A stretch of 37,770 nucleotides of DNA from an uncultured Acidimicrobiaceae bacterium (GTDB lineage Bacteria; Actinomycetota; Acidimicrobiia; Acidimicrobiales; Ilumatobacteraceae). The notes beneath the pieces were generated by a model. The model saw only the letters and a list, made by a program, of their open reading frames with translations. It had not been told where the DNA came from and did not search any database. The position numbers were made by a program, and so were the translations under genes. The stretch covers positions 1 to 37,770 of the forward strand of contig CALACK010000129.1 in NCBI GenBank assembly GCA_937890395.1, in the 5' to 3' direction. This document shows, piece after piece, positions 13,766 to 17,733 of this stretch (its first letter is position 1; every line of letters begins with the position of its first letter).

Positions 13766-14302
13766 TTGGGCGAAATTATTGATACGCGAACGAATTGGCT
13801 TGAACCCAATCAACTTGAATTAGTGCGTGGTCAAGTTCCACTCGTATATATAGATGCGATACCCGTGCGGGTTAATGAGCTCGGTGTCGTTACTCATGTC
13901 GGAATGCTGTTGCGCCAAGCCCCTGACGGGTCAATTTCGCGAACAATTGTTTCTGGTCGGGTATTGCTCAACGAGCGAATTCGCGAAGCGTTACTACGCC
14001 ACCTCGAGAAAGATCTTGGGTCGATGGCTTTGCCGAACATTCCACTCAATCCCGCACCGTTTACGATCGTTGAATATTTTACCGACCCAGAAATCAGCGG
14101 CTTTCATGATCCACGACATCACGCAGTTAGTTTGGCATTTGTTGTCCCGGTTTCGGGCGATTGTCAACCATCGCAGCAGGCGCTTGACCTTGGTTGGTAT
14201 ACACCAGAGCAAGCAACCAGTGACCAGATGAAACTTGAAATGACAAGTGGCCACGACCGTTTGATACGACTCGCGTTGGCATCGGTCGGAGTGTTGCCTT
14301 AG
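13766..14302 (+). CDS. DUF4916 (NUDIX-like) protein
   Basis: This 178-residue actinobacterial protein belongs to DUF4916. Family landmarks in order are WLEPNQLELVRGQVPLVYID, a basic ISRTIVSGRVL segment, RHLEKDLG, FHDPRHHAVSLAFVVPV and a C-terminal WYTPEQA motif. It has a NUDIX-like fold flavour but lacks a canonical REXXEE box; the nearest equivalent is the REALLRHLEKDLG helix. Activity is therefore uncertain. It starts at TTG 13766 with a clear AGGAG. It lies 35 nt upstream of the Fpg/Nei-like gene on the same strand, possibly a damage- or nucleotide-housekeeping pair, which is inference. Confidence 0.8.
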   Translation: MGEIIDTRTNWLEPNQLELVRGQVPLVYIDAIPVRVNELGVVTHVGMLLRQAPDGSISRTIVSGRVLLNERIREALLRHLEKDLGSMALPNIPLNPAPFTIVEYFTDPEISGFHDPRHHAVSLAFVVPVSGDCQPSQQALDLGWYTPEQATSDQMKLEMTSGHDRLIRLALASVGVLP

Positions 14303-14337
14303 TAATACAAACTTGGCGAACGTTTATCACTTACTAT

Positions 14338-15213
14338 TTGAACATGCTAGTTAAGTCAATGCAACATAATGCTTCTGCATTGCGAACAGCGTTGATGGGA
14401 CAAAAGATGTTGAGTTTTGAAACTAGCGAATCACTAATTGTTTCTCCGAAGATTGGCAGAACGATTGAAGAATTGCGAGTGGAGAATCGGAGTATTGAAA
14501 TTATCTGGGACGACGGTCTCGTGCTTAAAACTGAGATGAAACTTCGTGGCTCTTGGTGTATTTTTCATAACGGAGAAAAATGGAGCAAGATAAAAAAATC
14601 GGCCCAAGTTATTATTAGTGTCGATGAATTGTCTGTGGTTTGTTTTGGTGCGCGCGAGATTGAGACATATCACGACTTTGATCTCCGTCGCCATCCGATG
14701 CTCGGTCGACTCGGCCCTGATTTAGCCGACCCCCGTGTCGATCTAAACGATTGTGTAGATCGCTTGATGAATTACGAGAATCCAGATGAAACAATTGCCG
14801 ATGTGTTACTTGATCAACGGGTGATGCGTGGCATCGGCAATGTTCACCGTTGTGAGTTGCTTTGGGCATGCGAATTACATCCGTGGGCGAAAGTTAGTTC
14901 GTTAAGTGTTGACGAATGTTTAGAACTAGTTTCGCTTGCTGCTGGAGTCTTGCGAGGTAACTCACGGCTCGCATCAACAGAACTAGCGGTTTACGGCAAG
15001 CATGGCAAAATTTGTAGTCGTTGTAGCGGGCAAGTCAGAGTTACCCACCACGGTGAAGCAAACAGAGTTCTCTACTGGTGCGTTGATTGCCAAGTGCGAC
15101 ATACAGACGTAACTTCGCAGGGATACGTAATAAAACACGACGCACCACTGGGCGTTCACCCAGCAGAACACCTTTATCTTTCTGAGTTAGCTAAGGTTCG
15201 AAAATCAGTTTGA
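14338..15213 (+). CDS. Fpg/Nei family DNA glycosylase homologue, catalytic N-terminus missing
   Basis: This 291-residue protein aligns by eye with Nei2/Fpg-type glycosylases. Conserved parts include the DDGLVLKTEMKLRGSW strand pair, RLGPDL, the helix-two-turn-helix DQRVMRGIGNVHRCELLW with the conserved Asn, and a C-terminal zinc finger (CSRC ... CVDC with NRVLYW) in the last 70 residues. However, the N-terminus (TTG 14338 or ATG 14344) reads MLVKSMQ instead of the invariant Pro2-Glu3, and the beta-hairpin catalytic Lys position appears to be Arg. No frame just upstream restores Pro-Glu. It may bind DNA without glycosylase/lyase chemistry. It overlaps the convergent ABC permease gene by 9 nt. 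Confidence 0.82.
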   Translation: MNMLVKSMQHNASALRTALMGQKMLSFETSESLIVSPKIGRTIEELRVENRSIEIIWDDGLVLKTEMKLRGSWCIFHNGEKWSKIKKSAQVIISVDELSVVCFGAREIETYHDFDLRRHPMLGRLGPDLADPRVDLNDCVDRLMNYENPDETIADVLLDQRVMRGIGNVHRCELLWACELHPWAKVSSLSVDECLELVSLAAGVLRGNSRLASTELAVYGKHGKICSRCSGQVRVTHHGEANRVLYWCVDCQVRHTDVTSQGYVIKHDAPLGVHPAEHLYLSELAKVRKSV

Positions 15214-17733
15214 GGCGATTGAAGAAATAATGTTAGTGCGTGTCGCGCGCCATGCAGGAAACACTGCAGCTACAACACCAATAACAAATGCGCCAACCAA
15301 AATAATGAACGTGTTGGCGATCGGCAATGTAAATGCACTGAAGCCTGAGTCGTTGAGCGATACGACGATCACGATGCCAGTCAAAATGCCAAGCACCACA
15401 CCAGTGATCGCGCCAAATAACGATGTAATGACACTCTCCCAACGCACCATCGTGCGCACTTGTGAGCGGGTCATACCCACACTTCGTAACAAACCTATTT
15501 CGCGTCGGCGCTCGAAGACCGACAACAACAGCGTGATGATAATGCCAACAATTGCGATGATCACCGACAAGAACAACAAGCCATAGATGAGCGCGAGAAA
15601 TTGATCGACCTGCCCCGCTTGAGTGTCGATGTATTCGTCGCGGCTTTCAAGTTTGCCGATGCCGAGGTCTTCGCTGACCGCCGAGATAGCAGTTCGCGCA
15701 CTTTCGTCGCTGACACCTTTGGCGGCTTTGATGTATACGAAACTGTCAAACAGCGGCGTGTTTGATCCTTCAAAAAGTTCGCGACTAACCGCATAGTTGC
15801 CATATGCATCTGTGTAAGTGCCAGCAACCATTAGTTGCATCGACCGACCATCGATGAGAGTGACTTGCACGCTAGAACCAACAGTCAGATTTTTTTCGAG
15901 CGCCTTGTCAGCCTCGACAAGAATTTCATTTTTGGCCAGACCTTGTTGCGTACCTTCGACCATTTCAAGGTCGTATAAACCATCAGAAGTTTTTGGATTA
16001 AATACCAAGACGAACGGCGATTCGTCGCCAACTTTGGCAGCGATGAAACCGACGCCAGTGGCTTGATCAACTTCGGAAAGTTGCGTGAGCTGATCGGTGA
16101 TAATGATCGGTATGCCACCAAAGCCACGACTATTGACGCTGAGTGCGTAGTCACCACGAAATGAACTGCCGATTGATTCACGAATTTCACTTTTGATGCT
16201 TGCTGCGAGTGCGGTAAATGCAGTAACGAGTGCGACACCAATTAGAACTGGCGCCGCCGTACGGGCGGTGCGCTTTGGGTTACGCGCCGCATTTTGTTGC
16301 GACATCGCACCTGTTACACCACGAAGTGCCGAAACCGGTTTACCGAGCAGAACAGCGACTGGTTTTGAAAGAGCGGGGCCGATAACGAGAACGCCGGCGA
16401 ACACACCGAGCACGCCAAGACCCAAAATCGTGACGGGTGCATCGTTCATCGCAGCGAACAGCGCGACTGCGCCAGCAACTATCAGTACGAAACCAATCGT
16501 TACTCGTCGGGTGAGTTTTTGGACAGTGTCAAGTGCGGTGTCGCGCATCGCGGCCACTGGAGGCACCCGACCCGATCGGAGCGCCGGAAGAATTGCCGAA
16601 AGAATTGTGATGACTGTGCCGATCAAAACTGTGCGTGTAATCGCCCCAGTTTCGATAGTCAAACCCGATGTCGGAATTTCGAGTCCAATCGCGTTAAGCA
16701 GCGCGCTCAGTGCGCGCGAAAGACCGATGCCGGCAACGAAACCAATCACAGAACCGAGCACACCAACAATTAGCGCTTCAACTAGCAGCGAAAACGTGAC
16801 TTGACGACGACTCGCGCCGATTGCTCGCAGTAACGCACTTTCACGTTGGCGTTGTGCGGCGGTGATCGAAAAAACATTGTAAATCACGAAACATCCGATG
16901 CCAAGCGCGATGTATGAAAACGCAGTTAAAAATGTAGTGAAGAAGCCCAAGACGGTTTTAATTTGGCTAGTTGTTTCTTCGGTTATTTCTGCGCCGGTGA
17001 GCGTTTCAAGTTTCGCATCTGCTGGCAATGCAGCGTTGATTGCCTTTGCTAATTCTTCATCGCTGAGCGTGCCGTCTCCTTGAATCAAAAACGCGTCGAC
17101 AAAACCAGGCTTGAGCAAAAACTCTGAAGCCGTGGGTTGATCGAACAATGCAAATGTTGCGCCATCTGGCGAAGAGACATCGCCGTAGTTGGCGATGCCA
17201 ACTAGAGCAAATTCGCGCGTTCCAGAAAGCGCGTTAACTCGCACTGTGTCGCCGATTTCAAACTTGCCTTTTTCTGACGTCTCGCGGTCAAGCATCATTT
17301 CTTTTGGCCCGACTGGTAGTCGACCATCTTCAACTTTCCATAAACCAGCGCTACTTTCTGAGGCAATGCCGCCAAATGTTGGCGGACCTTGATCTTGGCC
17401 GATCGGTTTTCCGTCTTTGTCTATGACTCGGGCGTAACTTTGCATGTCACCGACTGCAGCGCTTACACCTTTTACTTTGAGAATCACTTCGAGTGCCGAA
17501 ACTGCGGATGGTGCACGCTGCTCACCAAAGCCAGTGTCAACCGAGTCGGTTGATCGGACATATGCATCAACATCGCGAAACACATCTGTGAACAGTCGAT
17601 CAAAAGTGCTGTTGATCGTGTCTGAAAAAATTGTTGTACCCGACAAAAACGAAGTTCCAAGGATGATTGCCAGCGAAGTCAGCAACAACCGCCCCTTGCG
17701 GGCGAGGGTCATTTTGAGTGAAAGTCGAAACAT
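15205..17733 (-). CDS. ABC transporter permease, FtsX/MacB-like, 10 TM
   Basis: This 842-residue permease has duplicated FtsX-type halves. TM1 (about residues 12-32) precedes a large periplasmic MacB-PCD-like domain (to about 260). Three helices follow (about 268-295, 320-345, 368-390), then two central helices (about 412-455), another (about 498-516), a second extracytoplasmic domain, and three C-terminal helices (about 715-740, 768-792, 810-830). It carries the family's 'RRREIGLLRSVGMTRSQV' coupling loop before the penultimate helix. Such permeases are mechanotransmission exporters of lipids, lipoproteins or antimicrobials. The ATPase gene lies 8 bp upstream in the same operon. Confidence 0.92.
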   Translation of the reverse strand: MFRLSLKMTLARKGRLLLTSLAIILGTSFLSGTTIFSDTINSTFDRLFTDVFRDVDAYVRSTDSVDTGFGEQRAPSAVSALEVILKVKGVSAAVGDMQSYARVIDKDGKPIGQDQGPPTFGGIASESSAGLWKVEDGRLPVGPKEMMLDRETSEKGKFEIGDTVRVNALSGTREFALVGIANYGDVSSPDGATFALFDQPTASEFLLKPGFVDAFLIQGDGTLSDEELAKAINAALPADAKLETLTGAEITEETTSQIKTVLGFFTTFLTAFSYIALGIGCFVIYNVFSITAAQRQRESALLRAIGASRRQVTFSLLVEALIVGVLGSVIGFVAGIGLSRALSALLNAIGLEIPTSGLTIETGAITRTVLIGTVITILSAILPALRSGRVPPVAAMRDTALDTVQKLTRRVTIGFVLIVAGAVALFAAMNDAPVTILGLGVLGVFAGVLVIGPALSKPVAVLLGKPVSALRGVTGAMSQQNAARNPKRTARTAAPVLIGVALVTAFTALAASIKSEIRESIGSSFRGDYALSVNSRGFGGIPIIITDQLTQLSEVDQATGVGFIAAKVGDESPFVLVFNPKTSDGLYDLEMVEGTQQGLAKNEILVEADKALEKNLTVGSSVQVTLIDGRSMQLMVAGTYTDAYGNYAVSRELFEGSNTPLFDSFVYIKAAKGVSDESARTAISAVSEDLGIGKLESRDEYIDTQAGQVDQFLALIYGLLFLSVIIAIVGIIITLLLSVFERRREIGLLRSVGMTRSQVRTMVRWESVITSLFGAITGVVLGILTGIVIVVSLNDSGFSAFTLPIANTFIILVGAFVIGVVAAVFPAWRATRTNIISSIASN

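Follow-up and report, generated by a model that had tools for sequence, protein, structure and literature searches.

The window, by which we mean the whole stretch of 37,770 nucleotides analysed here from an uncultured member of the Ilumatobacteraceae, holds a gene for a Nei2-type protein between a DUF4916 (Nudix-like) gene and a convergent ABC-transporter permease gene (Table 1). This gene order is kept in most orthologous loci of the family, in intact as well as altered lineages. The preliminary description had reported an open reading frame at 14338-15213 on the forward strand; our check of the window bears out that the frame is real, but its TTG at 14338 is probably not the start, which start-codon comparison most likely places at ATG 14344. 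This ATG is conserved in the sister and closest species, and in one of these, L009, a stop codon immediately precedes it. The probable -10 box TACTAT ends 6 bases upstream of ATG 14344, a distance that fits a leaderless start, and the pattern TAnnnT stands 5-8 nt 5' of the start in 116 of 156 homologues, as against ca. 5% in shuffles. The other half of the genus has the nei2 start overlapping the DUF4916 stop (ATGA, GTGA or TTGA), and the two arrangements together fix the N-terminus. Many nei2 promoters of the family, intact and altered, also carry the motif G..TATCnCnC near -35 (about -42 to -30; L027, L054, L141, L060 and others), some 27-28 bases upstream of where the -10 box begins; it is not evident upstream of nei2 in the window's genus. 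Residues of the window protein are counted from ATG 14344.

Table 1. Features of the nei2-type locus, in positions of the window.
Feature	Coordinates	Strand	Basis and remarks
DUF4916 (Nudix-like) gene	13766..14302	+	PF16262, 236.6 bits; synteny; conserved upstream neighbour
Probable -10 box TACTAT, leaderless promoter	14332..14337	+	TAnnnT pattern among homologues
Putative Nei2-type pseudo-glycosylase gene, 289 aa	14344..15213	+	Synteny, alignment, tree, start-codon comparison
Leu2-Val3, in place of catalytic Pro2-Glu3	14347..14352	+	Alignment with 142 orthologues
Arg49, in place of catalytic hairpin Lys51 (M. smegmatis Nei2 numbering)	14488..14490	+	Alignment
Leu67, in place of base-wedging Met	14542..14544	+	Orthologue alignment
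H2TH domain, with Asp157 (14812-14814) and Asn166 (14839-14841)	14710..14955	+	PF06831
Zinc finger, Cys224, Cys227, Cys246, Cys249, with DNA-contacting Arg241 (15064-15066)	14992..15096	+	Alignment
C-terminal extension, residues 253-289	15100..15210	+	Shared by intact and altered members of the family; lacking in outgroups
ABC-transporter permease gene, convergent, downstream	15205..17733	-	Present at most orthologous loci

The helix-two-turn-helix (H2TH) domain and the zinc finger, which the preliminary description took to be intact, are so: the former matches PF06831 at 45.4 bits (cut-off 34.7), and the zinc Cys4, Asn166, Asp157 and Arg241 are all kept. The Pfam zinc-finger model itself gave no match to the window protein, nor did the N-terminal model PF01149 (Fapy_DNA_glyco), which scores 37.4 bits in the intact sister L027, and the 79.6 bits obtained with the NCBIfam Nei2 equivalog NF040775 do not reach its cut-off of 400. 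Locus and tree position, both shared with intact Nei2, nonetheless assign the protein to the Nei2 orthologous lineage, and its N-terminal lobe still matches M. smegmatis Nei2 (8tjg) by fold. The best match by sequence and by Foldseek is E. coli Nei (1k3w/1k3x; E 1e-17 to 3e-18), whose phosphate-binding Asn and zinc-finger Arg are kept in the window protein while its catalytic Pro, Glu and Lys are replaced. M. smegmatis Nei2, also found by the PDB sequence search, belongs to the same fold family, with two lobes, H2TH and Cys4 zinc finger, at 26-29% identity in structure alignments; it differs in that it keeps Pro2, Glu3, Lys51 and enzyme activity, lies in an operon with lhr rather than beside a DUF4916 gene, and ends at residue 252, where the window protein adds a tail of ca. 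37 residues. This tail matched no known domain and has a family-wide core of approximately DTP...HPA[AE]...[YF]L that is absent from outgroup Nei2. An AlphaFold model of the window protein (pLDDT 86.3, pTM 0.80) aligns with 8tjg over 226 residues at Z 16.2 and an rmsd of 12.0 Å, which reflects a different placement of the lobes, since these fit individually and the closed arrangement does not. Lobe placement was considered as a functional signal and dropped, because the model of an intact sister deviates too (Z 20.1, 242 residues, rmsd 7.4 Å, with a low pTM of 0.55).

The roles of the wedge Met, and of the Asn and Arg mentioned above, are established for Fpg/Nei proteins. Those of the catalytic Pro, Glu and Lys follow from the structural comparison of Nei2 and Nei, and here we can uphold what had been noticed earlier: Pro2-Glu3 is absent from the window protein, and the hairpin Lys is an Arg. 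All 24 copies examined in the genus (23 genomes) are without Pro-Glu and without the Lys, the site of the latter being Arg in 23 and Gln in one, and residues 2-3 vary among them (LV, RV, LF, RF, IF, LA, IS, FA, TF, LP). The wedge Met is present in 41 of 50 intact and in 6 of 92 altered orthologues. A start-codon or sequencing error that masks an ordinary Met-Pro-Glu start, an outcome the preliminary description had itself envisaged, has practically no probability left: [AGT]TG-CCN-GAR is absent from 14000-14480 in any frame, so that no upstream frame restores the residues, the same N-terminus recurs in independently assembled species, none of the 24 copies has Pro-Glu, and the position of the -10 box agrees with ATG 14344. 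In one genome of the genus (G028:C370) the match to the gene is split, with a stop, into two overlapping pieces that differ in frame; either the gene carries a frameshift or the assembly is at fault.

Orthologues occur in 136 of 148 Ilumatobacteraceae genomes, usually as a single copy. The Pro-Glu-Lys triad is intact in 50 of the 142 family orthologues and partly or fully lost in the other 92; no acid stands at position 3 in 54 of these, and others, which keep Glu/Asp, or Lys, may be partly active. Outside the family every copy whose N-terminus can be read is intact: the triad stands in all 14 order-level outgroups, and the 17 additional class-level copies that are readable at this end all begin (M/V)PEGD. 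The direction of change is loss, as the triad is intact in both the outgroups and the basal rows. On a tree built without the trait columns (N-terminal, Lys and wedge positions) the number of changes is 15 or more for the intact triad and 14 or more for Glu3, counts that are approximate because the tree is a quick one with long branches; 11 independent pairs lie on starred, i.e. well-supported, branches. Seven genera mix intact and altered members (g2, g10, g12, g17, g18, g21, g25), and g1, the window's genus, together with g5, both altered throughout, adjoins g9, which is intact throughout (joint branch 100, starred). Loss of the Lys accompanies loss of Pro-Glu in 6.9 versus 0.3 of the 11 pairs (median p 0.03, range 0.008-0.22). 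The altered orthologues at the same time keep Asp157 (92 of 92), Asn166 (91 of 92), the zinc Cys4 (92 of 92) and the hairpin Arg241 (89 of 92). The part that is kept would be the one that holds the DNA backbone, and the part that is lost the one that acts on base and sugar.

So widespread a pattern could come from a gene that is decaying towards a pseudogene, and the repeated loss of catalytic residues, the small genomes, and a median dN/dS that is somewhat higher in some altered clades (0.13-0.19) than in intact ones (0.05) speak for it. Clade by clade, the altered medians are 0.19 in g19, 0.13 in g13, 0.09 and 0.16 in the two halves of g1, and 0.04 in g5, and one altered genus equals the intact genera (0.041 versus 0.047). 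Within g1 the zinc finger (0.01-0.04), the C-terminal tail (0.04-0.08) and the H2TH domain (0.05-0.07) are the most constrained parts, followed by the beta-sandwich (0.11-0.16); constraint is weakest at the N-terminal tip (0.22-0.36). Judging by these rates, the altered proteins are under strong purifying selection and are not pseudogenes. With a full-length open frame in nearly all of the 24 genus copies and almost invariant zinc Cys and DNA-contact residues besides, decay appears largely refuted, and we regard it as very improbable.

The genome from which the window derives (ca. 91% complete) encodes, as its only further H2TH protein, a MutM of canonical type that starts MPELPEV and lies beside an rnc-like gene; this is also its one PF01149 protein, and it has two HhH-GPD proteins besides. 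As another Nei was not found in it, the genome appears to be without an active one, and we rejected replacement by a second active Nei for the window's genus. Lhr (PF08494) was not found in that genus either; it is likewise absent where the triad is lost in g5, g22 and, with the exception of one member, g13, whereas the intact sister g9 has it. The raw association of Lhr with the triad (Fisher p 6e-7) shrinks to 4.0 versus 1.1 of 11 independent pairs (p ca. 0.38), and, being non-significant after correction for descent, is a lead only. The preliminary description had also suggested a task shared with the DUF4916 gene. This pairing is real and old, but it does not account for the loss of the active site, since DUF4916 adjoins intact Nei2 as well as altered Nei2, and in several genera the two genes do not lie side by side. 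A search of the literature collection used here found no paper on DUF4916, and its single close PDB relative is 4ktb. Its Nudix box (GRVL..ERIREALLRHLEKDLG) is non-canonical family-wide, with RHLEKDLG in place of REUXEEXGU, so that DUF4916 is perhaps something other than an ordinary Nudix hydrolase.

With Pro2, Glu3 and Lys all missing, the window protein should be unable to carry out either the lyase or the glycosylase step. From sequence comparison we give a probability of about 55% to the reading that it is a single-copy, syntenic Nei2 turned into a DNA-binding pseudo-glycosylase, which would recognise damaged or unusual DNA and hand it on. Its grip on DNA phosphates would be retained through Asn166 and Arg241, and its targets, by homology with Nei2, would be damaged, single-stranded or cross-linked DNA. 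Because it could neither excise the base nor cleave the strand, it would flag or shield the site, which would then pass to another pathway; the conserved C-terminal tail, whose constraint hints at a partner, might serve in this hand-over. Of the earlier suggestion that the protein is a DNA binder rather than a glycosylase, the DNA binding stands as the best reading, given the constraint on the DNA-gripping half and the many times the active site was lost independently; the lesion sensing is suggested by homology. Constraint on the beta-sandwich could also be compatible with a changed function that does not concern lesions.

Such a function might be that of a sequence- or structure-specific DNA-binding regulator, acting for instance on its own promoter or on the DUF4916 operon. 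The DNA-binding half would be kept for this purpose as well, and the family-wide motif near -35 of the protein's own promoter is a conceivable target, because its exact version with the -10 box, in a scan of eight genomes, fell on the nei2 promoter itself in six of seven matches. Yet the motif is equally frequent before intact Nei2, it is the very element that we do not see in the window's genus, and no H2TH-zinc-finger protein with this fold is known to act as a regulator; we hold a regulator to be unlikely. The idea that the protein has remained active as a DNA glycosylase or AP lyase, with the nucleophile supplied by an internal residue or by a different N-terminal amine, as by Val2 in NEIL3, draws on studies of M. 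smegmatis Nei2. There, AP lyase activity requires Pro2 and Lys51 and the 5-hydroxyuracil glycosylase requires Glu3 and Lys51, and the P2A protein keeps the latter activity (PMC11323726). In nine altered rows of related lineages only Pro2 is lost, with Glu3 and Lys kept, so that partial activity is plausible in those lineages. The window's genus, however, is also without Glu3 and Lys, both required by the Nei2 glycosylase, nothing conserved replaces Pro2 or Glu3, and residues 2-3 are variable in the least constrained part of the protein; the alternative nucleophile proposed earlier is accordingly quite improbable.

The pseudo-glycosylase reading would have its closest precedents in what Nei2 and NEIL3 do in cross-link repair independently of catalysis. 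In vivo, psoralen resistance of M. smegmatis is fully rescued by Nei2 P2A and P2C, the latter without measurable 5-hydroxyuracil activity, partially by K51A, and not at all by E3A (PMC11323726); this last result is evidence against our reading, for it means that Glu3 matters in M. smegmatis. The Nei domain of NEIL3 shares the fold and is likewise without the N-terminal Pro (Val2), and a non-catalytic scaffold role has been reported for NEIL3, as cited in PMC11323726; it differs in retaining the Glu that adjoins the N-terminal residue and in being an active glycosylase. Our literature search for catalytically dead Fpg/Nei proteins found only the truncated M. tuberculosis Fpg2 (Rv0944), a relative without the catalytic N-terminus that has full-length orthologues in related mycobacteria (PMC2734929); the window protein, in contrast, has both lobes, with only key residues changed, and is under selection.

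Alkyltransferase-like proteins, inactive homologues of repair proteins which mark lesions for excision repair, would offer a parallel case. Pseudo-enzymes usually originate from duplicated genes; in this family of aquatic bacteria, by contrast, a repair enzyme present as a single copy repeatedly loses its active site while the remainder stays strongly selected. We consider this recurrence to be the notable finding, and a stronger pattern than the preliminary description saw, as it suggests a useful job without catalysis. Tentatively, and at somewhat less than even odds, we propose that the glycosylase was converted in place, at least 11 times independently, into a conserved non-catalytic lesion binder, in which DNA binding would be the selected core, excision dispensable, and the family tail a link to a partner. 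This bears on the question, raised by the mycobacterial mutants, of a role of Nei2 in cross-link repair beyond its lyase, for which the family supplies naturally occurring proteins without the catalytic residues, to be compared with intact orthologues from sister lineages. Extra Nei2-type genes are met only in some g12 genomes (L172, L173, L174, L175), where a second one, starting PEGDT where readable, is situated elsewhere; in several of these the syntenic copy is altered.
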